A DNA stretch of 64,000 nt from Branchiostoma floridae. Taxonomy: Eukaryota > Chordata > Leptocardii > Amphioxiformes > Branchiostomatidae. Positions within the stretch are counted from its first letter, which is position 1. Every line of letters starts with the position of its first letter. Shown one piece after another: positions 12,328 to 64,000 of the stretch. The notes beneath the pieces are model-generated. The model saw only the letters and a program-made list of their open reading frames with translations. It was not told where the DNA came from and made no database searches. Location of the stretch: contig NC_049991.1 of NCBI RefSeq assembly GCF_000003815.2, positions 5,712,882 through 5,776,881 on the forward strand. Direction: 5' to 3'. The position numbers and the translations under genes are program-made.

Positions 12328-12427
12328 NNNNNNNNNNNNNNNNNNNNNNNNNNNNNNNNNNNNNNNNNNNNNNNNNNNNNNNNNNNNNNNNNNNNNNNNN
12401 NNNNNNNNNNNNNNNNNNNNNNNNNNN
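12328..12427. other. Assembly gap of 100 N
   Basis: Exactly 100 unknown bases, the conventional placeholder for a gap of unknown length. The sequence immediately to its right is one arm of an inverted repeat, a likely cause of the break. Confidence 0.99.
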
Positions 12428-12671
12428 GTCACCGGAACGTACTGCGCCTGCGCGAAAAGTGTAGACATGCTAAACCTTGCTAAACCCCCGGTTTACTAAA
12501 GGGCCGCATTTAAGAAAGTACGTGCGTATATAAGGGTCAAATCCCGTGTACGTTTTACATGAAACCATGTCTCTAACATATACTGTACAACAAGCGGGAT
12601 TTCAATGCAACGTTGACCAAACCAAGCCCCAAACCACCAGGGTTCGCGCAGGCGCAGTACGTTCCGGTGAC
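12428..12671. mobile_element. Inverted-repeat element abutting the gap
   Basis: GTCACCGGAACGTACTGCGC at the gap edge is the reverse complement of the sequence ending at 12671. The element may extend into the gap. No coding capacity. Confidence 0.6.
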
Positions 12672-22500: not shown

Positions 22501-23251
22501 AGAGGTTGTTGGTGGTGGTGGTGGGGTGAAGGGAATCGTGACCTTTTTCCCCTCATATCCCGTATTTTTCGACCACTGCTTTGGTGGTGAGGCTGGTCGA
22601 AAAATACGGCATATATAAGGAAAAGGTCACGTTTTTCCCCACCAACCTCTGCTTGGAGAGCAAACAAAACGTTTACAGGGGACACTTGTGACCCCCCCCC
22701 CCCAAAAAAAAGGTTGAGGCGAAGGAGTTGTCCTATACATCAAAGACTTATCTCGATTCAGTGACAGTGGATCTCTTCAAGTATAAATCCACAAGCAGTG
22801 TCTGGACTGAAATTGAAGCGAAACAGAGAAATATATGGTTTCTATGTCGCCAAATCCATCTGAAGAGAGCGGCTAAGAATTGCGATGTAGCATTGAAGTG
22901 GTTGGTTCACAAATAACATAATTTGATCGTCATGCATGGTTCCAACTGTAGTACCTGTGTCAATGGTTAGTTGTGGGGTGGGCCGACTACTCTCTCTTCG
23001 CAGCCAGAAGCTTACAGTATGCAGGGCTACGTATTCCTGTATGACTATGAGCCGATACGTTGGAAATGCTTGAATTCGGCAAAATTTGAAAGGTCTATAT
23101 TATATTCTGACGTATACACTGTGTAATTTTTGTGAGGGACTTACTCTGACTTGACAGTTGACTGACGGCCAGTACTCAAACCGGATGAAACCGGCCAGGT
23201 GAACCCTGGGTGCCACATCGGTGGGTAGGGAACACCAGGTGAACATGTCAA
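19598..23251 (-). CDS. CUB-LDLa single-pass membrane protein, upstream paralogue, 5' end not found
   Basis: Recognised exons: 23251-23145, 21447-21180, 20567-20451, 20313-20266 and 19854-19598, encoding 264 residues plus a split first codon. Introns are phase 0 inside the CUB domain and phase 1 elsewhere. The CUB domain reads from about GFIRFEYWPSVNCQVR, across the phase-0 junction into VISELENSRISLKFLDLNIE, then SLSIYDG and SFRILYSIFVDS. The following LDLa-like module (SCPTNGNYSTC, DGRCMPGD, NCPDGEDE) has only four of the usual six cysteines. A 16-codon linker exon, an acidic stalk, a membrane helix (IAGICIGGLIAIVLAGVAC) and a tail of about 38 residues ending LLETV follow. Order and phase mirror the gene at 13515-16670, so the two are tandem duplicates. 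The signal-peptide exon was not found upstream; the first listed exon starts inside a 77-bp tandem array and its acceptor is the nearest frame-consistent one. Confidence 0.72.
20921..21154. mobile_element. MITE, GTAACGCTAGTTCACC family, intronic
   Basis: The arms are variants of GTAACGCTAGTTCACCTTTA followed by TCCGCGGGGTAACCTATATC, seen also at 29925, 33804 and 35491. It ends 26 bp downstream of the donor of exon 21447-21180 of the minus-strand gene. Confidence 0.55.
21538..21629. mobile_element. 92-bp foldback MITE
   Basis: ATTCTCCTACGCAGACATC pairs with GATGTTTCTGCGTAGGAGAAT, and GCGCTAGCAAA with TTTGCTAGCGC inside. It is almost entirely a hairpin and lies about 90 bp upstream of the 21447 acceptor of the minus-strand gene. 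Confidence 0.75.
22050..22315. repeat. Degenerate minisatellite of about 30 bp units
   Basis: Variants of GGGGGGCAATCAGAAAAACT recur at irregular spacing, with a long G run near 22300. It lies in the large CUB intron. Confidence 0.6.
22491..22660. mobile_element. MITE, CTCCAAGCAGAGGTT family, 170 bp
   Basis: The ends CTCTCCAAGCAGAGGTTG and CAACCTCTGCTTGGAGAG are exact reverse complements. AAAACGTTTA occurs on both sides (22481 and about 22666). No coding capacity. Confidence 0.75.
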
Positions 23252-23656
23252 CTGTGGAAAACAGGGGAACATTTGGTGAACCCTGGGTGCTACATCGGTG
23301 GGTAGGGAACACCAGGTGAACATGTCAACTGTGGAAAACTGAAACATTTGGTGAACCCTGGGTGCCACATCGGTGGGTAGGGAACACCAGGTGAACATGT
23401 CAACTGTGGAAAACAGGGGAACATTTGGTGAACCCTGGGTGCCACATCGGTGGGTAGGGAACACCAGGTGAACATGTCAACTGTGGAAAACAGGGGAACA
23501 TTTGGTGAACCCTGGGTGCCACATCGGTGGGTAGGGAACACCAAGTGAACATGTCAACTGTGGAAAACAGGGGAACATTTGGTGAACCCTGGGTGCCACA
23601 TCGGTGGGTAGGGAACACCAGGTGAACATGTCAACTGTGGAAAACAGGGAAGCATT
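23190..23656. repeat. Six-copy 77-bp tandem array overlapping a CUB exon
   Basis: GAACCCTGGG starts at 23201, 23278, 23353, 23430, 23507 and 23584, giving periods of 77, 75, 77, 77 and 77. Copies are nearly identical. On the minus strand most units contain a polypyrimidine-AG acceptor (CCTGTTTTCCACAG), and the last unit runs directly into the CUB exon ending at 23145. A 77-bp step changes the frame, so only selected acceptors could be used in frame. Confidence 0.9.
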
Positions 23657-26732: not shown

Positions 26733-26747
26733 AACAACATGGCGGAA
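26733..26747. promoter_or_regulatory. YY1-like motif over the SIRT7 start codon
   Basis: AACATGGCGG includes the initiator ATG and matches, on the minus strand, the CCGCCATGTT core bound by YY1. Such sites commonly lie at or just after transcription starts of TATA-less housekeeping genes. Occupancy is inference. Confidence 0.35.
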
Positions 26748-29700
26748 CCTCAGGGATCGGAAGAGACAAGCTCCAGGGAAGCTCGGAAGATTGCCCAGAA
26801 ATGCCAGCTTCTCGTGAAGGCAGAGACTCGTGCACGGAAGAAAAAGGTTCGAAGAGAATTCTGAAATTGCTTAGATATTATTATCTTCGTTCGATTCCTA
26901 GGATTTGCTGGAAAACGGCGGCGGTTTCGAGTATAACATGTTTTACCCCCCGAGGCGAGACCACGTTTTGCTTCTGTATTTTACGCTATGCATGTTTCTT
27001 AGCCTCCAAATTGGCCTCATGTACAAATTCTGCATAAAAACATAGCAATGAAAATACATTTCTGTCGTTATTTTCTTCCAGATCTCGGAAATCCTGAAGA
27101 AACCAGAGGAAGTCAGAACCCAGGAAGAGGTGCAGATTTTACAACAGTCGCCAGAGGTCGTTGCTGACATGCAGAAGAGAGCTCGTCGGAGAGACAAACT
27201 GAAAGAGCAATTGAAAGAGGTCCATGTCTATTTTCGTAGTTCACTAGTTCACGCATAAGCAAAAAGTTGTAATTTCAACGGAGAGCATATTGTTGAACAT
27301 TATTACTAAAATTTCGGCATAATTTGTTATGCATTTTTTTTCATTATGGCACCTTGCACAAATATCCCTACGTATACGTTGTATTTCATTTTCGCTATCA
27401 ACATTTCCAGGTAGAAGACCCTCCCGAACTTCTGTATAAAAAGTCATGTGAGCTGTCCACAGCTGTACTACAGGCGAGGCATCTGGTGGTGTATACTGGA
27501 GCTGGCATCAGTACGGTTAGTTATCACTAACTTATGAACTAGTTAACTAGTTAGTTAACCTGTACATGTGAGCTGTCCACAGCTGTACTACAGACCAGAC
27601 ATCTGGTGGTGTATACTGGAGCTGGCATCAGTACGGTTAGTTATCACTAACTTATGAACTAGTTAACTAGTTAGTTAACCTGTACATGTGAGCTGTCCAC
27701 AGCTGTACTGCAGGCCAGACATCTGGTGGTGTATACTGGAGCTGGCATCAGTACGGTTAGTTATCACTAACTTATCAACTTACTAGCCAACTAGTTAGTT
27801 AACCTGTACAAGATAAGTCATGTGAGCTGGCCACAGCTGTACTACAGGCAAAGCATCTGGTGGTGTATACTGAAGCAGGCAACAGTACGGCTAGATATCA
27901 CTAACTTATCAACTAGTTAACTAGTTAGTTGACCTGTACAGTCAGATGTGTGAGCTGGCCACAGCTGTATGACAGACAAAACAACACTTGGCTTGACTAG
28001 AAAAAATACAAATTGTTTTGATAAGTGATATGATAAGTTAATGATTGGTTAGTTAACCTATAAAGTAAGTACGTGAGATGGCCATACCTATTTCACAATT
28101 CCGAATTTTGAGATATAACATTTTTCCTCTGAAGGCGGCATCATAAAATTTCAAAACAATGTGTCCTTTGGTTATTCAACCTTAATCTCCAAGCAGATCC
28201 ACGGTGGCATACTAATATAGTATCAAACCCATGGTGCCCGTTTGACTACCTTTGGCCGGCTATACACCTTGGCTAACTTTGATACTATCTTATACTATCT
28301 ATCTATCTGCTTGGAGATTGATTCAACCTGTGTGGTAAGTTAATATCAACCATAAATCCATAGACTACCGCTGTCAGAGATGTAAACCTTATTTCCTCTT
28401 TCCAGGCCGCCTCCATCCCTGACTACAGAGGTCCCAATGGTGTGTGGACAATGTTACAGCAGGGGAGACCTGTAGAGTATGTACTCACCCTCTTCTATAT
28501 CACATGAACTGTCCCCTTATTATAATATACTATCAAAACATCCAAGCAGTTCAAACATAGATATTCCATCTCCATAACATGTTTGTACGAAAGTTGTGTG
28601 AAAGCAAAAATTTTGCCATACAAATCTTTGGTATAATTTGGCCAAGACAGCATGTACAGAAAGCTTGCTTTTTTTGTATTATACATTGCACAACCATTAT
28701 GTATGTATATATGTATCTATTGGTATGACTGTTCAGCACACACAGTCAGATCACTGCCCAACTAGCCTGTGGCTATTACAAAGGGCTAGTCCTGCTGACA
28801 GAGACAAGACTGTACAAATGGAATTTGACATAGACAGAATAACAATTAATAACAATATTCTAATAACATAAAAACTATAAAACTGTAAGAACATACAAAT
28901 GGTCTGAAATACACGTAGTGTATACAGTGAAATAATAAGAGCGACTTATTCCTGTGTTGATCATATATTTCCTTTGTTTCAGAACCAGAAGTCTAACCGA
29001 TGCCCAGCCTACAGTTACACACATGGCGCTGGCCAGGCTACATCAGGAAGGTTATGTGAGTAGATAATCTCTCAACATATTCTTTAAATTCAGACTTACT
29101 TGTAAGACCAGGGCTGTCTACAGGGCCCATCCCTCTGTCTCTGGATTTACTTGTTGAGAAATTTCACCCCATCCATCCAAAACTTAATGGAAAAAAAAAG
29201 TTATGAAAACATATAGCAAAAATTTAGCAACAAAAATCAGCAATATTGGCTCCTATTAAAACAGTGGGTGGGACAGAAAAATATTTTAAGCTGGAGACAT
29301 CCCTTTATAAATATGCTGATGTTGTTAAGCTGTCCTTTCCAAGATTATGTTTGTGACTACTGGAATGTCTATCTTCCCCCATTCAGGTGAAATATGTGGT
29401 GTCGCAGAACTGCGATGGTTTGCACCTGCGGAGTGGGTTACCCAGGAACGCTTTCTCCGAGGTCCATGGGAACATGTATATTGAGGTAACATGAATGCAA
29501 ACATACATGTAGTGAATACACCATAAGAAATAATGTCATATTGGCTTGAAATTAATATTTGGGAATCACCAAGCAGCTGCATATGATTTTGGAAACGGTC
29601 AAACAACAGCCGTTATCTTTCGTCAGTAACACAGAAAAGATCTGTCTTCAGCTCCTTTGCATATCATTTCATATTAGGTTTTTATCATTTCATAGTTGTG

Positions 29701-32700
29701 ATATAAAACCTGCACTCCAACAAGATCTTTTCAGCGTCTCTCAGTCTGAAAAAAGATAACGGATGTTATGTTATCTGAGACGTATGAACGTTTCCAAAAT
29801 CATATCCAGTTGCTTGAGTAATTGCTATTTGGCATATTTTATTACTTAGAAGTCTAACCTTCATCGACACATATCTGGGAATATTATCTAAAAAGCTGAT
29901 TTTTGCATTACTCTACTGGTACTGGGGGCAACGGTAGTTCACCTTTATCTGCGGGGTAACATACCTTTATCCGTTGCATTTAAAATTGGAGTATTCAGGG
30001 CAGGGCTCTAGCCAGCTCGAAATTTTTTTCCGTCAGCCAATTCCCATTGTCGCGAAAACACTCTTCCATGAGTTAGAAAGACTGAACTGAGACCTTGAAA
30101 AATGGGTTTTTAATGAGATTATCGTATGCTAAAGGCGCCGACACACTTTGTCAACAATAATAACAATAGCAAAACAAACGGTGTGTGGCTTTTATGGCCG
30201 TGGACGGCGTCCCCAAGCCGCCTGTAGCTTCCATCAAGGATTTTTGTCCGTCAAGGTTGACGGATTGGTTTTAAAATTTTTCTGTCACACACAGCAATTG
30301 ACAGAAAAACGGACGCTGGCTAGAGCCCTGATTCAGGGATATAAACTCGACAACGGTTGGTCCAGACTGGAATGCTATCAAAATATTATAACTTGAAACC
30401 AACGGCCGTCGACCGGATGTCCCTAACTACCTCATTTTTAAAATCAACGGATATAGGTTACCATGTGGATAAAGGTCAACTACCGTTACAAACTTGTATC
30501 AAACACATCACAAACAGGGCTCGAAATACTACCTGCTTATGCAGGTTAGTGCAGGTAACATTGGAGCTGTGCAGGTATTTCTGGTGTCTATCTGCACCTA
30601 ACCTGCACTGGTCCATGTACTGGGTTTTGTACTTAAAATAAATGTCCAATGATGTAGGTTTATATGGATTGTTATTAGCTGCATTGACTGTTATCACGTA
30701 TTATGTATAAAAGAAAAAATAGCAATGGTTCCTGAAGAATTTTAGTATGATCCATACCTCCTATATTCAGAGTGGTGCAGGTAAAGATTGTCTGGTGCAG
30801 GTAACTTTCAATGTTACCTGCACCAGTGCAGGTATGCAGAAAAAATTATTTCGAGCCCTGACAAAGCAAATCCATCTCTTTCTGTAGGTGTGCGCAGAGT
30901 GTGATCCCGAGACAGAGTACATCAGGTTATTTGATGTAACGGAACGGACGTCGTTACACAGACACGTGACTGACCGTAACTGTCACTCCTGCGGCGAGCC
31001 ACTCAGGGACAGTATCGTGCACTTCGGCGAGCGGAGCTGTCTGGAGAGTCCGCACAATTGGGAGGACGCCATGGACCACGCCAAAAAAGCAGACACCATT
31101 TTGTGCCTTGGGTCCAGTTTAAAGGTATTGGTAATATGATGAAAAAATCTTTAAGATATTTGCCAGCAAATGCAGGTTATGACGTTCCCCGTTCTACAAA
31201 ACTGATGTTCTGAGTATATCCTGATTAGAAATTGTGGACTGTGAATTCTTGTACTTTTTGGGGACCTAATTTTACATCAGAAAGGAAAGGAGGTTTTGTG
31301 GCCTTATAAGTCCTCAGTTGAAACATTTCTGATACATTGGGATTCATTGTCACAGCATATTTGCAGTCTCATGAGTTTGCAAGGGATATGTTACGGAAAA
31401 TGAGAAAAAACACTGCAGACATTTCAAGATATACCACATGTAATGTTTCTTGATCCCTTGCCCGATATTGAATAGTGTTAGATTTGTCATTCCTGTCTAG
31501 CAGAATGAACATGAAAGATTTTTACTGACAGGTGCATTTTTTCCCTGTCAGGTGCTAAAGAGATACAGCTGTCTGTGGGGTATGACTAGGGTGTTACACA
31601 AGAGACCCAAACTCTTCATCGTTAACCTACAGTGGACACCTAAGGATGACAACGCTACACTGAAGATCAATGGTAAGAACTGTGTCTGTCCCCAATCTTA
31701 AAGACCATTACAATATGTTCAAGGTAACATTTTCCTAAAAGGGGCAAAACATATGCTTCACCCAATGCTCTAACTATGCACTGACATATTACGTCGTTGA
31801 ATGATAGACATCCAGGTAAAAAGATGCAGCAAATAGCAATTAGTTAGTTAGCTAGTTGAGTTCAGTTTATTCAGAAAAAAATTAGCATCGCAGTCAGTAA
31901 AAAACAAACTGAAATTACTCAGGAAACTGGATATGATTTTGGAAATGGTCAGATCCACTACCTTTCGTCAATCTCGGCATCAATGACAAAAGGTAATGGA
32001 TGCTACCTGAAACACCTGACCATTTCCAAAATTATAACCAGTTGCTTGAGTAATTGCTATTTGGCATGCACCCCTCTGCCAAGGGAAAACATTCTCTGAC
32101 AGTGACAAGCATGATATTCAGATTGAAGAGGGTTGCTACTAGGTCACATGTGGCCACAGTTGTCAGCTATGACATGTCTGACAGTAATTTTTCCCCTCAA
32201 GAATCATTTTAAGATTACTCCAGAAAGGGGGATCAACATCACCCTCCTGCTCTCTCTCTGTCCACTCCCTCATACTGTTAAGCTGATCTCCTTCTCCCTC
32301 TTAGCTTAGGGATATATGACAAATAAACACACTGACACACACATAGTCCCAGGTGTGTATTCACTGAACCTCTGCATTCCAGACTGGACTGTTCCATTTG
32401 TGAGGGGGGGTAGGCTATTCTAATCTAAGTAAACTAACACATGCCTCATGCCATTTTCTTTTCTTCCTGGTGTACCTTTGAATATTGATGACAAAACCAG
32501 AAGTATGGAATCATGTGTTGTATGTTTCTCTGTGTCCAGGAAAGTGTGATGAACTCATGGTTCTCCTGATGAAGAAACTTGGACTGGAAATCCCCGTATA
32601 CAGAAGGTAGGATTGATTTATCTTGATATGAGAAAATAAATATGTCTAGTAGTTATGTTTAACATGCAAGGTCAAGGATCTGAAGTAGGCAGCTGACACC

Positions 32701-33143
32701 ATGTGATGTATGATTGCAGAATGTAGTAAGTGGCAGGACAGAGCTGGAGAGAATATGTTTGAGTATAAGAGCAATATTTTGTCGGACTATACCATTACAT
32801 TTAGAAGATAAACGGAGAAGAATTCATTGTTTTTGTTTGTTTCATCTTTATTTACAGAGAGAACGATCCCATCTTCAAGTTGGCGATACCGCTGCTACCC
32901 GATGAACACGGTAGCTTCAGCACGTGTCAGCTGACCCTACCGACGGACGCTACCTCACTCACGACACAGCACAACTCTGACTCACCCACGTGCAATGGCG
33001 AAGAGAAAAATACAGACCAAAAAGATAATTCCTCCTACAAACCGGGCTGGTTTGGCAAGGGTTGTGCCAAAAGAAGAAACAGTGCAGCTAAGAGGAGGAA
33101 ATCTAACACTGCCACTTCTACCTCTGTCAAACTTTCTGACTAG
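26739..33143 (+). CDS. SIRT7: NAD-dependent protein deacylase sirtuin-7, complete (434 aa)
   Basis: Ten coding exons: 26739-26846, 27082-27219, 27411-27515, 28406-28476, 28983-29055, 29387-29485, 30888-31124, 31552-31672, 32540-32606 and 32858-33143. All junctions have GT-AG and agree in phase. The product is a class IV sirtuin that removes acyl groups from histone and other lysines using NAD+; vertebrate SIRT7 is nuclear and nucleolar. Visible motifs are GAGIST (112-117), [10 protein letters not shown] (122-131), SQNCDGLH (171-178), the catalytic His192 in VHGNMY, and zinc ligands Cys200, Cys203, Cys230 and Cys233 with the same spacing as human SIRT7. GSSLK and [11 protein letters not shown] follow. 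The helical charged N-terminus and basic C-terminal tail ([16 protein letters not shown]) are also SIRT7-like. Human SIRT7 is 400 aa. Exon 3 is followed by a tandem array of its own partial copies. A possible AATAAA is at 33722. Confidence 0.95.
27446..28000 (+). repeat. Tandem array of partial SIRT7 exon 3 copies
   Basis: AGCTGTCC/AGCTGGCC starts at 27451 (the real exon), 27571, 27691, 27825 and 27953, giving steps of 120, 120, 134 and 128 bp. Each of the first three units contains the exon 3' part encoding [12 protein letters not shown], the donor ACG|GTTAGT and about 50 bp of intron (AACTAGTTAACTAGTTAG). The second and third copies keep the reading frame and donor and are almost identical to the exon; later copies decay. 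Acceptor-like CTGTACTACAG lies inside the copies. Confidence 0.9.
28183..28320. mobile_element. MITE, CTCCAAGCAGAT family, in SIRT7 intron 3
   Basis: AATCTCCAAGCAGATC and ATCTGCTTGGAGATT are inverted ends. ATTCAACC occurs just outside both ends (28174 and 28321), a possible target-site duplication with small offsets. No coding capacity. Confidence 0.7.
29565..29850. repeat. Dispersed foldback repeat in SIRT7 intron 6
   Basis: GCATATGATTTTGGAAACGG near the left and CGTTTCCAAAATCATATCCA near the right are inverted. The right part continues GTTGCTTGAGTAATTGCTAT. The same family is at 31915-32070 and, split by another insertion, at 40735-41290. Confidence 0.6.
29925..30514. mobile_element. GTAACGCTAGTTCACC-family MITE split by a hAT-like element
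   Basis: The left arm (GTAGTTCACCTTTATCTGCG) and right arm (GGATAAAGGTCAACTACCGT) are inverted and flank the element at 30001-30330. The inner insertion has an exact 8-bp duplication, so the order of events is clear. Confidence 0.65.
30001..30330. mobile_element. Non-autonomous hAT-like element, 330 bp, with exact 8-bp TSD
   Basis: Ends CAGGGCTCTAGCCAGC and GCTGGC TAGAGCCCTG are inverted. The flanks ATTCAGGG at 29993-30000 and 30331-30338 are identical, the 8-bp duplication typical of hAT transposons. Sister copies are at 52123-52457 and 54220-54572. No transposase. Confidence 0.88.
30515..30860. mobile_element. hAT-like MITE, CAGGGCTCGAAATA ends, beside SIRT7 exon 7
   Basis: CAGGGCTCGAAATA and TATTTCGAGCCCTG are inverted ends, and the interior is rich in ACCTGCACC/GGTGCAGGT. 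The right end is 27 bp upstream of exon 7. Diverged relatives occur at 41582, 42755 and 56818. No clear TSD. Confidence 0.7.
31915..32070. repeat. Foldback repeat in SIRT7 intron 8
   Basis: CTGGATATGATTTTGGAAAT and its inverted partner near 32015-32045 bound a short segment. Same family as 29565-29850. Confidence 0.6.
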
Positions 33144-49200: not shown

Positions 49201-52200
49201 CAAGGAGACTTAGCAGCTGCATTAGGTCAGTACATTGAAATAGGAAGATATTAGTATATCATGTGACAGAGTAACTACATGTGCATGGGCCATCTGAGAC
49301 AAAAAAAGGTAGCGTCTCAACAACTTCAAAGTACTGTGGTTGGTTACATACTTAAGAAATCCAAAATAAGTAATGTTCATCCATGTCCAAACTTACAAAT
49401 TCAGAAAATGGAATTTCAGACTTTTGCATGGTGCACACTCGGGTAAGTTACGGCCTGTGATTCGATGAAGCTTGCCGAGGAGTGAAAAAGGGCGCGGTCC
49501 CTCAAGGTTACCAGGGCGATGGAACCGAACATGAAATTCGAACCACTACGTGTCCGCAGTTGACTCCGCTTGACCACAACGTTGCAGAACGGTCCAATGT
49601 CATAATGTAACGATACATTGCGAAAACAGTAACTCACTATGTATGGGGCACACTCACCACTTTTGGTAAAACGTCCAAATGCAAACCGTATTAGATATGG
49701 ATGAAGAATGTATCAAATATTGACATAATTCGATGCCTATGACAAAAAGAGGCCCCCGCGGAAGCCGCATAATGGTACCGTCCGAGCCCCGTTCGATCGA
49801 ACGGCCGAACCCTTGGGTTGTGAAATGGCGGGAAAACGACAGCGGCGCTGGCAGCGGTTCTGAAGGACCGTTACCATCGCATTTACGGGCTTCGTCCTCG
49901 GTGACAACAGTACTTTTGCTGACAATATCGACAAATTCGTATTTATCATCCCTTTTAAAAGAAATTTATCCATCGCTATTTGGTTTCATCATGAAAGGAC
50001 TTCCTCTAGAGCGGATTATTGACAAAAATTAGAAAAAAACCTCCATTTTACCTATTTTTCACCCCAAAAAAGTTATGATGAATTAATATACAACAAAATA
50101 GCGACGGAGAAACTAAATATACTTGAGTTTATCTGTCATCCTGTGAAATATGAGGGTCCAGAACGTTGTCTCCACCGAGGACAGGGCACATGAAATGAAC
50201 CTAATATTTTTTAACCAAAATGTGTGTTTTTTAACCCCAAAATCTATCATATCAACATAATTTGTCCGGGGTTTTATTTCAGTTAATTACTACTAGCACC
50301 TTGTGAAATTTCATTGCAATACGACCATGCTATCGAATTTTACAAGCATGTACCCATTTTACCATGTATACCGCAGTGTCACATGCCGTAATTGACCAGA
50401 GCAACCAACAGGGTAAAAAGCTCATTTTTCCAACCACGTACCACAGACAAAAAGGCAAAAATACACAATAGGTCTACAGAAACCCAATACATTTCATGCA
50501 GGCCTGAGGTCTACGAACTCTTGTTTCAGTCTGTTGGGTTGTTGTGAATTTTGGTGTAACACACTCACATAAACTTTGGACTTGTATCTATACTATATAG
50601 TCTGTCTGCTCTGTTGTTACATTTGTTGAATGCTAGCACGTTTCACGACCTCCCCAGGTGAAAGGCCTTATAAGTGTAACAAATGTGGCCGTGGGTTCTC
50701 GGAGTCCGGCGCCCTGCTACGGCACCACAAAGCGCTCATCTCGTGCACAGACAAGGCGAAAACGTCCAACTTCAGCCAGGTCAGGATTCGCCCCGTTGAC
50801 AACTTCGACGCATCAGAGACTCTTACGCATCACATGACCAGGAGCAGAACAAGGAATGCTGGGAATGTGGCAGCAGAGGATCCTGGGATGGGAGCAGAGG
50901 ATTCTGGGATGGCAGAAGAGGATGCTGGGATGGCAGCAGGGGATGATGGGAATGGAGAAGCAGGGGATGATGGGATGGAAGAGGCTGAGCCTGTTGCTGT
51001 AGAGCTAGGGATGACCTCTGTTGAAGGTCATCTAGAGGGGGTACAAGTTGAGGAAGCTACCACTGCTGCAGAGGGGGAGGAGCCCCTGGACAGTGTTGAG
51101 GAAGGTAAGATAGGCTCCAGGTAGTTACAAGATGCTTTTATAATTCTTTAAGTGGCCAGATTGTAACTGATACAGAAAAAATTGAATGGAGAGGATAGCA
51201 ATGAAAATAGCAACGCTGTCAGGCCTCAAAATTAACTTTTATCCCTATCGTCCCTGAAGTCTCAGAAAACTGAATTCCAAGTTCTGAAGTAAACTTGAAT
51301 TGTCCAAAATCTTTTTGCAAAAAAAAAAGGCTATAGCTAGTACCTGTCATGTCTCTGGGAGTATGCCTTAGGAAGAGATTAACAAGTTCAGGATTGTATT
51401 CACCATGTGCCTACAGACAGGGAAATTTACAATGTACTGGAATTTTCCCAAAGCGCATATCCAACTGTTAATTTCACTTCTGATCCTTTCTGATCTGTTC
51501 TTGCCTACATCTACTATGTGACCTTACAAATTAAGTAACAATACAACTCTAATGATAAACACATCACTACTATTTTTGTACAGGGGACAGTGAAGAGAAT
51601 GAGCAACCCAGCCCTCAGGAGTTACCTAACCAGTGTCGTGTGTGTAAGGTGGTCCTCACAAACAGTCACAACCTGAAACTGCACCTGCTAGCCGCGCATC
51701 TACAGGTTGGTTTGTTTGTTTAGGATATTCTATGGATCACATCCTGCTCAGACACAATTCAAGATTCTAGATCTAGATTTTCAAAATAAACATCATAAAC
51801 GTTGTAAGAAAAGTTGAAGCGATAGAACATGCTTTTACAGCCATCAATTTTTTTTCTGTATTCCAGATCTAGAGGTACAGTTGCAGATTTACCCATAGCT
51901 GTATATTCTGCATCAAAATGAAACGTATTTCCAACAGTCAAAAATTGTTACCCACGTTTTTCACTGTCCAACTCCAGTCTTTGTCAAGGAATGCACAATC
52001 CACTGCTTCTGTGACATCACGTTATGCAGATAAAACAAGTTACTCGGTAAGCAGTGGATCATATTAAGTAAATTGCAGAAAGCGCGAATACTCCATGTTG
52101 TACAAAATAAATTCTGTGTACGCAGGGCTCTAGCCAGCTCGATTTTTTTTTCCGTCAGCCAATTCCAATCGTTGTGAAAACCGCGAAAATTAATTTCTCC

Positions 52201-55200
52201 TTTGACACTACATAGTAGTAAATGTTGCAATTGAGACCTTGAAAAAAGGGTTTTAATGAGTTTATCGTATGAAAGGGCGCCGACACACATTGTCAGCAAT
52301 CATAACAATAGCAAAACAAACAGTGTGTGGCTATTACGGCTGTGGACAGCGTCCCCAAGCCGCCTGTCAAGGTTGACGGATTGCTTTAAAAATTTTTCCG
52401 TCAGAGGCAGCAAATTTCCGTCAATTGACAGAAAAACGGACGCTGGCTAGAGCCCTGTATGTACGTAATCGTGTGCGTATGTTCCAGGATACGCCGTTCC
52501 GCTGTGGTTTGTGCGCGTTTTGCACGGGGGAGCGGTCGGACCTGCAGAAGCACATGTTGATGAAGCACCGGCGGCACCTGGGGGAGGGGCAGTACCTGGA
52601 CGTGGTGCAGGTGGACGGGCAGGGAAACATCCGGCCACTCCCCAGGCCGCATGACAAGCGCATGCCGGAGATGACCGCTGGGGGGACGGAGGAGGTAGCC
52701 TGAGAAGCCTGAGTTCTAGACTAATTTAGCTTGTAAATATTGGGGGTAGCAATAGTTGTAGGGGTGCAGGTGGACGGGCAGGGAAACATCCGGCCACTCC
52801 CCAGGCCACACGACAAGCGCATGCCGGAGATGACTGCTGGGGGCACAGAGGAGGTAGCCTGAGTAGCCTGAGTTCTAGACTTGTTTATCTTGTGTATAGT
52901 GGTGGTAGCAATAGTTGTAGGGGTGCAGGTGGACGGGCAGGGAAACATCCGGCCACCCCCCAGGCCTCACGACAAGCGCATGCCGGAAATGACCGCTGGG
53001 GGCACAGAGGAGGTAACCAGAGTATTCAACTTGTCTGGCTTGTCTGTAGTGAGGTTAGCAATAGTTGTAGTAACTTCATTAGCTTTATAAGGCTAGATCA
53101 TAGGTTACATGGACAGGAATCGGGGTACAAGATTTTTTCACAGTGTAGGGGGCATATTAGCGTGGCAAAGCCACATGGCAAGCGATGCAGGCATTAGATT
53201 TGTAGGAGGGTCTGGCATGGGGGCATCTCCCTTTGAAAAGTTTCTAACTCTCAGAAACTCTATTTCTTGCATTTTGAGGGCCATTTTGTTTGTAAACAAC
53301 AAAAACCCCATACGCTGGTTGAAACATAGATTAGGTGCCCAGATACATGTAGTGTTGCGTAATCGGCAGTGCCTTGGTCTCAGGCCCAAGAGGTCCCTGG
53401 TTCGAAACCTGCCATGTCACCTATCTTGTGCCCTTGAGAAATGCACTTTCCCCACTTCACCTAACAATAAACCTAACTATAAACCTCACTATAATCCTTA
53501 CAATAAACCTAACAGTGATTCGTAGGAGCTTTCATTTATAGACCAATTGTAGGGCAAGGTAATGGCAAAATTGATCCCCTTGAATTTGTGAAGAAATCTC
53601 CTGACAATTTTTTCCTCAATGACATCAGGAAACAGCGGCGGATCTGCTTGGAGAGGCGATGGCTAACTCTGGGATCTCCTCAGATGAGACAGAGATGGTG
53701 GATGCTGCCATCAACACAGAGGAGACCTCCCTTGATGGGGGTGGGAACCCTGCAGCAAGCGCCGCCTTGGAACAACTGTTGGAACTGCAGCATATGACAG
53801 AGACTACAAGCCAGGTATGCTATAGTATAGAATAGGTATTGTAGGTTTGACATACTGGTAGTAATGTACAATGTACATAATGTAATAGGACAGTGAATCC
53901 CATTCAGAATGTCTATAAGATTCACCAATAATGCAACTATGTATTTCAAGCTACATTTAGACACTTTTTGATGAAAAGATTTTGATTTGTTACCCCCATG
54001 AGATGTGAAGGAATTGTTTAAGGTGTTTCTGTCAGTCTGTGTTTGCTTCGAGATATTTGTGGTGAGAATAACTTCATGTGGATGGATTGTAATGATTGTA
54101 AATGATATCTTTGGTACATGGATAGGGTTGGAAAAAGTCAAGGTCAATTTTTGGCCCCCTAGTGTGTTACAATGATACTGCAACAGAACTTCTGCTTATT
54201 TGTATCTTTTGTCCTAGACCAGGGCTCTAGCCAGCGTCCGTTTTTCCGTCAATTGACGGAAATTTGCTGCGTGTGACGGAAAAATTTTTAAACCAATCCA
54301 TCAACTTTGACGGACAAAAATCTGATAAAAGCTCCTTGGTGGAAGCTACAGGCTGCTTGAGGACGCCGTCCACAGCCGTAAAAGCCACACACTGTTTGTT
54401 TTGCTATTGTTATGATTGTTGACAATGTGTGTCGGTGCCCTTTCGCATACGATAATCTCATTATAACCCGTTTTTCAAGGTCTCTGTTCAGTCTCTCTAA
54501 CTCCTGGAATAGTGTTTTCGCAACAATGGGAATTGGCTGGCGGAAAAAAATGTCGAGCTGGCTAGAGCCCTGTCCTAGACATGCCATGGTCTTGTTGTTT
54601 CTATTCTAGCCTCCTGTACACAGCCGTAGAACCCTGCACAAGTGTCCACATGAAGGCTGCAACCGTAGTTTCCGGGGGTCCAGCTATCTCAAACTCCATC
54701 TAAGGTCCCATTCAGGTAAGGATATTACTTATTTTCTTAGTGCATTAGAGAAATTTGTACAAGTTCAAATCTATGGAAAGGAGTAGAATTTCCAAAATTT
54801 CTGAAATATTTGTGGAAGAAATAGGAGTTATCAAAGATCTCATTCCTACATAAAATAATTTTTGTGAATTTCTTGATGAGTGCCATAACCCTATCTAGGG
54901 CTGGGTATCGGTACAGCGTACCGGTACAAAACCGGTTTTTCTTATTGGACCGGTCCAGAAAAAACGGACCTGAAAAAAATAGGTAGACCGGATGTTGGAC
55001 CGATTAGAAAATTAACAGATTATTTTATCAAGCATTCACACGTTTTGGCGCTTGCAGGTGGAAGAAAATAACAAGAGTGAAGTAGAGTTTCTAGTAATTT
55101 CTACAAAGTTTTACAGCCAATCGTACAGGCGCAGTTAGCATTGTAGGATTTTAAAACGCCAGTGTAAGTCTAATACTCCACTGAACAGATTATTTATAGT

Positions 55201-58200: not shown

Positions 58201-59621
58201 AGAAATAAGTTTTGTCTGTTTGCCTCATTGACCTCATCTTCGATCTGTCATGGCCGCCGCGTGAGAAAGGTGTATACCATGCCCTAGCTGCACAGTACAC
58301 TAGATAACAACCTATTTTATCTTTGACCCCAAGAAAAGTCATTTGGCTATCTTTACATTTACATGTAACTCTGCTTTTTTCGATACTAATCATATCTCCC
58401 GTGCAACTTGCTGACTAGCTGACATGGTTTAATTTATTCACGGTTGCCTTGGCAATGATTAGAGTTCCTAATTGTGATTGGTCCATTGTTGTAGGTGATG
58501 GGAGGTGTGACCAATGACCAGATAGTGGAGGCCCTGAGAATGGCCCAGGCCAGTGGGGAAGTCCAGGAGGTCCAGGTCCAACAGGTGAGAACTTGACTGT
58601 GTTGATGTTCACTTTGAAGCCTACAAATCCTAACAGCTGTGACAAACTTTTAATATGCAGTTACAGTAGAGTTTAGTATGTGTGCATGGTTCGAAATACC
58701 AGGTAGCCCAGTTACAGCGTGCAACTGCACTTGGTTTGGCAACGTCAGATTGCGTAGTAAGCTAACCAGTTTCGAGGCTAAGACTGCAAGTGTGTGCATC
58801 TGTGTGTGCAAGCAGCCTGTTGTTGTGTGCACGTGATTCATAATCAAGGTTCCAACACCAAATCATGTTTCAGGATAAAGACTGGAACTTATTGACTGAG
58901 GTATCATACTGACTTTCAAATTGAAGAGCTTTCTTTTAAGTTACCACCCTGATGTTCTTTAATCTCTCACTGGTTTCCAGCCGCCCGGCATTGCTTTTCC
59001 ATTGAATGTTCATGGGCAAACTACCTTTTGGTTCACCATTGATGCCCACTGGGCAGACTGCCTATAAAAATTATTTAGAACCTTGACCCTCTTTGCGTAA
59101 CTCCATAATTCTTAGAGAAAAAAAATATCTAAATGGTTGCTTCACTTTGCTAAAGGTTAAAGGCTGTCTTTCTTTAAAATGTCTACATTTGTTTATTCTG
59201 AAGCTATATTGACTTGCTTCTTGTTAATGGTTCAATGTTTAAACTGATTGTGTTGCACAATCCCACCCAGGGGGAAGCCATGGATATATCGGATCAGCAC
59301 GGGGCCTCTGTTGTCGTAACCAGCGAGGTTGTTCACATCGACCCCTCCGTTATCATGAGTACGTCCTCCGCCACTGACCTCCACAACCTCCCAGCAACAG
59401 CAGAGATGGTGCCACAGGTCACGGTGTCAGAGGTCATGGGTCAAGATGGAGGTCAGGTCACAGTAGCAGAGGTCATGGGTCATGCTGAAGGTCTGGACCA
59501 GGAAGTCACCACTGTTGGGGACTCAGCCAGTGGGATGGTCAACATGGTCAAGCTGGCCCCTACTGTGGACGATAGCAACATGCAGACAGACATAGAGACA
59601 GTCGTAGTGGAAATGCATTGA
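37299..59621 (+). CDS. E4F1: E4F1-type zinc-finger transcription factor / ubiquitin ligase, complete (982 aa)
   Basis: Sixteen exons: 37299-37368, 38059-38373, 38773-38865, 39873-40041, 41455-41560, 47028-47148, 50658-51104, 51584-51705, 52488-52694, 53629-53814, 54610-54715, 55861-56078, 56502-56700, 57374-57522, 58495-58584 and 59271-59621. Phases agree throughout. Residues 35-58 ([20 protein letters not shown]) match the N-terminal C2HC module of vertebrate E4F1, the region tied to its atypical E3 activity. Further fingers lie at about 186-320 (five, ending in the C2HC-type [10 protein letters not shown]), 457 and 486, and 617-785 (six). Exon 13 ends [16 protein letters not shown] and exon 14 has [18 protein letters not shown], both E4F1 signatures. 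In vertebrates E4F1 binds DNA and acts on p53 and metabolic genes. It is longer than human E4F1 (about 784 aa), partly through an acidic repeat in exon 7. Exon 9 is partly duplicated in the following intron. The start ATG was chosen as the first in frame, with a phase-1 donor after GAT G. Confidence 0.93.
38868..39850. repeat. About 1 kb of CATC/CATT microsatellite in E4F1 intron 3
   Basis: Almost continuous variants of CCATCCATC, CCATTCATC and CTTCCCTCC. A long open frame across it is a by-product of the 4-bp repeat lacking stop codons. Longer internal periodicity is present: a block with TTTTCCATCTTCTCCATTCA recurs. Confidence 0.95.
40735..41290. mobile_element. Dispersed repeat split by a hAT-like element (40811-41227) with 8-bp TSD
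   Basis: The inner 417-bp element has ends TAGTGGTGCGTACC and GGTACGCACCACTA and is flanked on both sides by GGCTTGAG (40803-40810 and 41228-41235), an exact 8-bp duplication. Its interior consists largely of AGGTCCGGA-like repeats. The interrupted host sequence is the TTGCTTGAGTAA family seen at 29565 and 31915. Confidence 0.88.
42184..42630 (+). pseudogene. Decayed cysteine-rich ORF, weakly like the P2X7 ballast domain
   Basis: An acidic start ([20 protein letters not shown]) is followed, after frame changes, by WCRCDDYNC, then [15 protein letters not shown], then [14 protein letters not shown]. The order of Cys-pair motifs and a C-x-x-H-x-x-F segment recalls the zinc-binding cytoplasmic ballast domain of P2X7, which occurs in many stand-alone invertebrate proteins. 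At least two frameshifts or stops break it. The match is by eye and weak; another zinc-binding transposon protein is possible. Confidence 0.3.
45370..46400. repeat. Degenerate tandem repeat of about 210 bp
   Basis: ACACAAAAAGTTTGAAGACC-type blocks occur near 45470, 45685 and 45892, with a diverged one near 46338. Units also share CCAATTTCTCGTAAACGGTA. About four copies lie inside the TTAA-flanked element. Confidence 0.75.
47232..47448. mobile_element. Foldback element with arms of about 100 bp
   Basis: CTATACAATATGCCTTGGGG at the left and CTCCAAGGTGTATTGTAG at the right are inverted, as are AACCAGCTGTCAGCCAATCA and its partner TGATTGGCTGACAACTGGTT. Most of the element is stem. It lies in E4F1 intron 6, 83 bp after exon 6. 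Confidence 0.7.
47590..48230. repeat. Four-copy tandem repeat, about 150 bp period
   Basis: CTTGACATT-type blocks occur at 47741, 47893, 48045 and 48192 (steps 152, 152, 147). Units share TTTGATTTTGGGCCTCCT and a phrase like GTATCTCCGGAACG. It lies in E4F1 intron 6. A single related unit is near 54000-54180. Confidence 0.8.
48231..50640. other. Rest of E4F1 intron 6, unclassified
   Basis: At 48490-48573 a short frame ([20 protein letters not shown]) ends at a GTATGT donor-like site, but no partner exon was found. 49430-49960 is GC-richer than its surroundings with ORFs on both strands and no recognisable domain. It may be an uncharacterised mobile element or regulatory island. Confidence 0.3.
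52123..52457. mobile_element. hAT-like MITE just upstream of E4F1 exon 9
   Basis: Same ends as 30001-30330 (CAGGGCTCTAGCCAGC). The flanks TGTGTACG and TATGTACG match at 7 of 8 bases. The right end is 30 bp before the exon 9 start, so the branch point of that intron probably lies in or at the edge of the element. Confidence 0.85.
52695..53012 (+). repeat. Two in-frame copies of the E4F1 exon 9 3' end
   Basis: GTGGACGGGCAGGGAAACAT starts in exon 9 at 52611 and again at 52770 and 52929, an exact 159-bp period. Copies at 52770-52853 and 52929-53012 each encode 28 codons ([20 protein letters not shown] and onward to GGTEE), are preceded by GGGGTGCAG and followed by GAG|GTAGCC or GAG|GTAACC. Length 84 and phase 0 at both ends would keep the E4F1 frame if spliced in. 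The preceding sequence is a poor polypyrimidine tract, so use as exons is uncertain. Confidence 0.85.
53136..53330. repeat. Dispersed repeat, relative of 60391-60573
   Basis: GGGGGCATCTCCCTTTGAAA and the AACTCTATTTCTTGCATTTT block parallel the GGGGCATGCTTCCCC and CGCCATTTCCTGCATTTTGA blocks at 60391-60573. Non-coding. Confidence 0.5.
53340..53470 (+). mobile_element. tRNA-derived SINE, fragment
   Basis: A-box-like TGCGTAATCGGCAGTG, B-box-like GGTTCGAAACC, and the CTTGTGCCCTTGAGAAATGC body shared with 7893. The 3' body is missing; instead ACCTAACAATAAACC-like short repeats follow. Confidence 0.65.
54220..54572. mobile_element. hAT-like MITE with exact 8-bp TSD, E4F1 intron 10
   Basis: CAGGGCTCTAGCCAGCG and the inverted end GAGCTGGCTAGAGCCCTG bound the element. 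TCCTAGAC occurs on both sides (54212-54219 and 54573-54580). It lies in the opposite orientation to the copy at 52123. Right edge 37 bp before exon 11. Confidence 0.88.
54898..55330. mobile_element. MITE with GGGCTGGGTATCGGTAC ends
   Basis: The left end GGGCTGGGTATCGGTACAG and right end CTGTACCGGTACCCACCC are inverted. The flanks CATAACCCTATC and CATAACCCTTATC are direct repeats. The interior contains CCTGGACCTGA-like repeats. Confidence 0.6.
57690..57898 (+). mobile_element. tRNA-derived SINE, diverged
   Basis: A tRNA-like head with B-box-like GGTTTCGATTCC is followed by CATTGTGCCCTTAATTTGG and CACTTAACATGACTTTCTCC, matching the 7893 SINE body. A MITE begins at 57908. Confidence 0.55.
57908..58276. 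mobile_element. MITE, TATACACCTTTCTCACGCGG family, copy 1
   Basis: The ends ACACCTTTCTCATGCGACGG and CCGCCGCGTGAGAAAGGTGT are inverted. The whole element is about 90% identical by eye to 61384-61782. Intronic in E4F1 (intron 14). Confidence 0.8.
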
Positions 59622-63102: not shown

Positions 63103-64000
63103 GGGTCCTTTTTGAAAACACCGCATGTCACGGTTCCGGGTAGGGTGATGACTTCAGACTACGATTGTAGCTTAGGCTTCAAGTTCCGGCCTGGCACACT
63201 TGGTATGGTTGGAAAGGTTGTTTAGTGAGGAATTGAAAGATGAAAACCGCAAAATATTCGAATACTTCATTCTCGAGTTATTCTTGAGCATACGGACCCT
63301 CTTTAGGCGAAACCGCTAGCTCCTTTTTGGAAACACCGCCTGTCACGGCACCGGGTAGGCTGATGACTGAAGACTGCGATTGTAGCTTAGGCTTCAAGTT
63401 CCGGCCTGGCACACTTGGTATGGTTGGAAGGTTGCATAGTGAGGAATCGAAAGATGAAAACCGCAAAATATTCGAATACTTCATTCTCGAGATATTCTTG
63501 AGCATACCGACCGTCTTTAGGCGCAACCGCTAGCTCCTTTTTGGAAATACCGCCTGTCGCGGCACCGGGGAGAGTGATGACTTAAGACTGACATTGCAGC
63601 TTAGGCTTCAAGTTCCGGCCTGGCACACTTGGTATGGTTGGAAAGGTTGCATAGTGAGGAATTATAAGATAAAACCCGCAAAATATTCGGATACTTCGTT
63701 TTCGAGATACTCTTGAGTGAGTAAACGGACCCTGTTTAGGCGCAACCGCTAGCTCCTTTTTGGAAACACCGCCTGTCACGGCAACGGGTAGGGTGATGAC
63801 TTAAGACTGAGATTGCAGCTTAGGCTTCAAGTTCCGGCCTGGCACACTTGGTATGGTTGGAAAGGTTGCATAGTGAGGAATTATAAGATAAAAACCGCAA
63901 AATATTCGGATACTTCGTTTTCGAGATACTCTTGAGTGAGTATACGGAGCCTGTCTAGGCGCAACCGCTAGCTCCTTTTCGGAAACACCGCCTGTCACGG
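63103..64000. repeat. Satellite-like tandem array, about 215-bp units, running off the window
   Basis: CTGGCACACTTGGTATGGTT starts at 63191, 63406, 63620 and 63839 (steps 215, 214, 219), and a fifth unit begins at the window end. Units share CACCGCCTGTCACGG, GGGTGATGACTT and AACCGCTAGCTCCTTTT. Similar ORFs on both strands are by-products. Array length beyond 64000 is unknown. Confidence 0.92.

Follow-up and report, generated by a model that had tools for sequence, protein, structure and literature searches.

The 3' part of exon 3 of the SIRT7 gene of Branchiostoma floridae is repeated in tandem into the intron that follows, together with the splice donor and the beginning of that intron. The array belongs to the known class of amphioxus mirages, minisatellites that span an exon-intron boundary. 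It is quite probable that its copies have exchanged sequence with the working exon and are removed with intron 3, the protein made being a normal SIRT7. The array lies in a stretch of 64,000 nucleotides (the window), C13:5712882-5776881 of an assembly of 513,431,437 bp, and the positions given are those of the window unless another sequence is named.

The array and its kin

The SIRT7 frame of 434 codons is complete and needs no extra copy of the end of exon 3; its top match in the PDB is sirtuin-7 (9gmk_K, E = 1.4e-140). The 3' end of exon 3 encodes the NAD-binding TGAGIST segment. The repeat unit is made up of this 3' part, the donor GTTAGT and 44 bp of intron. TRF gives 4.0 copies of a 120-bp unit at 27445-27940 (score 740), and self-BLAST gives E = 2e-154 at offset 120, far beyond chance. 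An earlier note, written from the letters of the sequence, was thus right that a tandem array exists. A search with the 555-bp stretch of the array had one match at E <= 0.001 in the 513-Mb assembly, the window itself.

Table 1. Features of the SIRT7 gene, its array and a second mirage in the window
Feature	Position	Strand	Remarks
SIRT7 gene	26739..33143	+	10 coding exons, 434 aa; exon ends hand-set at GT/AG, frame matching sirtuin-7
SIRT7 exons 1-5	26739-26846, 27082-27219, 27411-27515, 28406-28476, 28983-29055	+	
SIRT7 exons 6-10	29387-29485, 30888-31124, 31552-31672, 32540-32606, 32858-33143	+	
SIRT7 exon 3	27411..27515	+	encodes VEDPP...; donor GTTAGT at 27516
Copy 1	27432..27559	+	3' part of the working exon and 44 bp of intron; ancestral 128-bp unit, bounded by CTGTA
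Copy 2	27560..27679	+	120 bp; exonic part open, with A to T as its one residue change; intact donor GTTAGT (27636)
Copy 3	27680..27803	+	exonic part open, three changes, all synonymous; donor GTTAGT at 27756
Copy 4	27804..27933	+	older; GAG motif gone, and GCTAGA (27890) where the donor was
Copy 5	27934..28056	+	decayed; exonic part with a stop and gaps; GCC (Ala) and AAA (Lys) retained
Possible sixth copy	28057..28180	+	marginal; just the first ~40 bp
CTACAG, supposed cryptic acceptor	27468..27473 (exon), 27588-27593 (copy 2), 27842-27847 (copy 4); CTGCAG 27708-27713 (copy 3)	+	poor acceptors
Second mirage	52604..53024	+	3' end of a C2H2 zinc-finger exon (52488-52694), donor and start of intron; 159-bp unit, 2.6 copies

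How many copies are there, and of what? The earlier note read a segment of exon 3, with its donor, as repeated four to five times. Three extra copies are clear (copies 2 to 4, at the unit starts of Table 1), and copy 5 is decayed yet significant (0/1000 shuffles against copy 4), but the remnant taken as a sixth is marginal (5/1000 against copy 4, 54/1000 against copy 5). What is repeated is the 3' part of the exon, from 27432 or 27445 onward, and no extra copy therefore has the true acceptor that lies before 27411. The exact step of 120 bp described for the first two extra copies separates copy 1 from 2 and copy 2 from 3 but no others; the two steps that follow are 134 and 128 bp. The older steps, unlike 120 bp here and 159 bp in the second mirage, are not multiples of three, and a frame-keeping unit was dropped as a sign of coding use.

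Copies 1 and 2 are identical at 66 of 69 exonic and all 44 intronic bases. Over the 113 aligned positions, identity to copy 1 is 110 for copy 2, 100 for copy 3 and 103 for copy 4 (each at least 62/113). The GT donor, said to be repeated downstream with the GAGIST motif, is intact in copies 2 and 3; copy 4 has TEAGNST for TGAGIST and GC for the donor GT, and copy 5 has no donor. Copies 2 and 3 stay open in their exonic part, but stops follow after the donor (VSYH*).

Tandem repeats across exon-intron boundaries of amphioxus genes, with units of 10-160 bp, have been called mirages and offered as a route to new introns (PMC3087553). Those in print concern Adh3, globins, TnC and PGBD5, and in the accounts given in PMC3087553 and PMC3902484 they are side remarks on single genes. 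The SIRT7 unit spans the boundary and, at 120-134 bp, lies within the range of lengths. Many of its repeats, but not all, carry splice signals, and there is a concerted cluster, copies 1-3 being alike and copies 4-6 divergent. A strict reading leaves the edge copies out of such a cluster, and here SIRT7 is an exception, as its edge copy is the exon and is not left out. Searches of the open-access amphioxus literature, by title and abstract, listed no SIRT7 mirage.

The globin mirages BflGb6 and BflGb9, as described in PMC3087553, resemble the SIRT7 array in being tandem duplications over a boundary whose copies carry splice signals, and in having inner copies in concerted evolution and divergent edge copies. 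BflGb9 duplicates the 3' boundary of an exon, as SIRT7 does, but with a 157-bp unit instead of 120 bp. SIRT7 differs from the globins (PMC3087553) in that its copies adjoining the exon are the homogenised ones, with decay increasing in one direction only, into the intron. The PGBD5 mirage also spans a boundary; it has 60- and 108-bp units and a copy number that varies between assemblies (PMC3902484). Repeats of TnC likewise span the boundary (cited in PMC3902484), whereas the Adh3 mirage differs in its units of 10-72 bp and in the somatic instability reported for it (cited in PMC3087553 and PMC3902484).

The window holds a second mirage, in a zinc-finger gene that we take to be E4F1-like. Donor GT is present in all three copies, and the open frames neighbouring the array match C2H2 zinc fingers (Pfam). 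This mirage is apparently new. Open frames of the zinc-finger gene also contain 21-bp and 39-bp tandem repeats (50868-50978 and 59415-59493), with periods that are multiples of three.

Nine exon loci from a globin search of the same assembly served as a positive control. In one of them, L016, the 3' boundary of the exon is duplicated over 157 bp as in the published BflGb9, and another, L020, has tandem copies of 150-158 bp at the exon 5' boundary as in BflGb6, with lengths of 154-158 bp for the three copies before the exon; the match in each case is one of side and unit length. At a further globin locus, L019 (1731-1947), a repeat of ~100-116 bp comes after the exon end; its first bases are the donor GTAAGTCC, and it contains hardly any exon. 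A kinase exon, L050 (C19:9613497-9613910), is a two-sided mirage (1182-1550 and 1819-2398): a 147-bp array before the exon repeats the acceptor and the first 16 codons, and after the exon come two copies of the last 26 codons with the donor. It was the one locus with a mirage among 30 in the kinase search, a count that gives no rate, since the matches of that search were mostly long single exons. The window adds two mirages (SIRT7 and the zinc-finger gene), and the same assembly adds the two-sided kinase exon.

Splicing of the array

Could the copies be spliced into the message? The earlier note saw CTACAG in frame inside each copy and proposed that it might serve as an acceptor for a 14-codon cassette. 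The exon has this word, as do copies 2 and 4; its place is taken by CTGCAG in copy 3 and by TGACAG in copy 5. Acceptors were scored with a model trained on the nine acceptors of SIRT7 only, a small set, each left out in turn. The true acceptors then score 0.2 to 12.0, and the CTACAG or CTGCAG sites in copies 1-4 range from -10.7 to -8.0, which is the 37th-50th percentile of 212 background intronic AGs. Pyrimidines number 10 of 17 at the candidate sites and 12-15 at the true ones. The donors are another matter: copies 1-3 have the same nine bases at this site, and the donors of copies 2 and 3 score like the real one (4.46). Joined to the true acceptor, the donor of copy 2 or 3 adds VSYH and then an in-frame stop. 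Except perhaps for rare use, the proposed cassette finds no support in the acceptors or in the stops.

Tandem exons that are mutually exclusive have an acceptor and a donor in every copy. SIRT7 also repeats exon segments, but by the score built on nine acceptors its copies carry no usable acceptor. A comparison with the potato RdRp gene is also of use, as there a duplication over the intron-exon boundary inherited splice signals, like that of SIRT7, and made a new intron (PMC4974935). SIRT7 needs no new intron; no copy is kept as an exon across one with an open frame, and the extended reading meets stops.

As the real acceptor is missing from each unit, exon 3 is most likely recognised by the spliceosome between the acceptor at 27410 and the first donor (27515). 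As judged from the sequence, this donor would probably win and the array be ignored by splicing, and all copies would then be excised with intron 3 to give the normal SIRT7 protein. Intron 2 of SIRT7 is 191 nt long and intron 3 890 nt, the limit between short and long introns being 250 nt. Human minigenes whose two donors were identical and whose flanking introns measured 365 nt used the upstream donor alone (PMC9225289). Human donors matched in strength showed a strengthened upstream preference in the class with a short upstream and a long downstream intron, while without strength matching all four architecture classes favoured the downstream donor (PMC9225289). A natural gene with tandem identical donors, where functional protein comes only from the first of three, is a ready test of exon definition.

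Two other outcomes of splicing are to be weighed. Copies 2 and 3 might be alternative or added cassette exons, and SIRT7 would then have isoforms in which the NAD-binding loop is doubled or swapped. Their exonic parts are open and in phase 0, their donors are intact with scores like that of the real one, and the unit contains a branch-like CTAAC (CACTAAC, 27525-27531). The candidate acceptors, however, lie at or below the median of the background AGs and are poor in pyrimidines, donor and motif are gone in copy 4, and the changes in SIRT7 itself show no clear constraint (5/10 synonymous), so that such exons are highly improbable. A second GAGIST loop, if inserted, would probably not fold as a sirtuin. 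Less improbable, though still poorly favoured, is unproductive splicing, in which some transcripts would use the donor of copy 2 or 3, gain VSYH* and be degraded, the length of the array tuning the SIRT7 level. Identical donors followed by in-frame stops are what this scheme asks for, and the zinc-finger mirage has the same design, with a stop three codons into the intron. But the human exon-definition data favour the first donor (PMC9225289), and regular splicing is not disturbed by mirages according to the Adh3 data and globin RT-PCR presented in PMC3087553. Removal of the whole array with intron 3 is the preferred reading.

The donor GTTAGT and the word ACTAAC form a short hairpin (27516-27531) in copies 1-3 that is broken in copy 4 (z-scores for copies 1-4: -1.6, -1.6, -2.9 and 0.1). 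It was considered as a selector of the donor and rejected; being common to the true donor and the two others, it cannot choose between them.

Age of the copies and probable exchange with the exon

How did the copies originate? CTGTA occurs in exon 3 (27432) and again where the intronic part of each unit ends. The first tandem duplication may have joined intron to exon, probably at this shared CTGTA, to give the 128-bp unit. The left end of copies 1, 4 and 5 is longer (CTGTA and a few A-rich bases before CATGTG or a similar word), and copies 2 and 3 begin with CTGTACATGTG, i.e. the exon sequence minus TAAAAAGT. Copy 2 thus has no TAAAAAGT, which exon 3 has. In the simplest history, eight bases would have been lost on the line leading to copies 2 and 3. 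Later unequal exchange would have made, lost and homogenised copies near the exon, and copies deeper in the intron would have escaped exchange and decayed.

Two codons date the copies. Copies 4, 5 and 6 have GCC (Ala) where exon 3 and copies 2 and 3 have TCC (Ser), and copies 4 and 5 have a Lys codon where exon 3 and copies 2 and 3 have Arg. At these two places the PDB sirtuin-7 has Ala and Lys, and sirtuin-6 Ala and Ser. The distal copies share Ala and Lys with sirtuin-7 and so left the exon before those changes, the near copies after. By this comparison of residues, copy age rises into the intron, and the older copies keep residues that the present exon has lost.

A recent local expansion or exchange, also suggested earlier, agrees with the 110/113 identity of copies 1 and 2 and with the mosaic of copy 2, which equals copy 3 at 27476 and 27479 and copy 1 from 27536 onward. 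The mosaic is of the kind that unequal exchange of copy 1 with its neighbour could leave, and two changes private to the exon would explain it equally. It is based on two sites before the switch and, after it, on one informative site and changes private to copy 3.

Do the differences between copies and exon bear the mark of coding? Six arrays in five genes were examined: SIRT7, the zinc-finger gene, the globins L016 and L020, and both sides of the L050 kinase exon. L019 was excluded, as its repeat begins at the donor with almost no exon inside. Between copy and exon, 41 of 64 exonic differences are synonymous, an excess that is uneven over the arrays (SIRT7 5/10, zinc-finger 7/8, L016 9/12, L020 11/21, L050 acceptor side 3/3, L050 donor side 6/10). 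The probability of such a count is 2e-9 against 0.28, 1e-5 against 0.37 and 1e-3 against 0.44, with events counted per site, which are non-independent and fall in part on the branch of the working exon. The value 0.28 is the unconstrained expectation, computed for two of the exons, as 0.28-0.33 for SIRT7 and 0.23-0.27 for the zinc-finger exon; 0.37 and 0.44 come from our own algebra for one constrained and one or two free branches. Nothing was dropped for misalignment from the full count: changes in the first L020 copy where its end is frameshifted, and in the three opening codons of one L050 donor copy, are included and add nonsynonymous events. If exon-private sites (where all copies agree against the exon) are set aside, 32/55 are synonymous and the excess is weak (P = 0.024 against 0.44). 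An earlier hand count over copies 1-3 and z1-z3, without copy 4, gave 10/12 and is superseded by the count of 41/64.

The copies seem, from these substitution counts, to have passed through the coding position or exchanged with it, perhaps as the exon of another haplotype or by being overwritten from the exon. It is proposed that the near copies owe their open frames to a recent past as the working exon, or to overwriting from it, and not to translation in their present place. Alternatively, all copies may go back to one origin and be decaying neutrally, without any exchange with the exon. Copy 4, without donor and motif, and the SIRT7 counts (5/10 synonymous) would fit such a static duplication, but the pooled synonymous excess over six arrays and the position of the youngest copies next to the exon speak against it, and it is considered unlikely. 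An array created in assembly, or by collapsed heterozygosity, is more doubtful by far. The copy number of the PGBD5 mirage does differ between assemblies (PMC3902484), and the SIRT7 count may for that reason be haplotype-specific. Each SIRT7 copy, however, has private changes, the distal copies decay in order, the array lies inside a 22.4-Mb contig, and published mirages recur in the same assembly.

With exchange as the preferred reading, a further step may be tentatively put forward, though it has less than even chances of being right. Mirage copies might constitute a reservoir in the intron, coding sequence being repeatedly replaced from the neighbouring intron and archived into it, and the distal copies would then be dated fossils of the exon. 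The synonymous bias and the retained older residues are possibly new, and they give a simple, testable account of mirage evolution.

Tandem repeats and exon boundaries

Are exon boundaries targeted by these repeats? Strong local copies are found at 2 of 24 exon boundaries (18 of SIRT7 and 6 of the zinc-finger gene, whose other boundaries, not placed, are outside the 24). Circular shifts of 10 of the 11 TRF rows with a period >=30 reach two in 701 of 1730 cases, with a mean of 1.5, and the binomial P is 0.46. Targeting to exon boundaries thus goes unsupported, as random placement yields as many. Tandem repeats of this kind make up 6.5% of the window, as compared with 1,690 of 100,000 bases in ten arbitrary 10-kb stretches of the same contig. 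Since boundaries are struck no more than at random, a high density of minisatellites and the tolerance of splicing are enough to explain mirages.

Other repeats lie elsewhere in the window. A 77-bp unit is present in 6.0 copies with 96% matches at 23198-23656, between the observed genes. A 219-bp unit with 4.1 copies (63106-64000) reaches the end of the window and has inside it an open frame without a Pfam match. A run of ~100 N is located at ~12330-12430.
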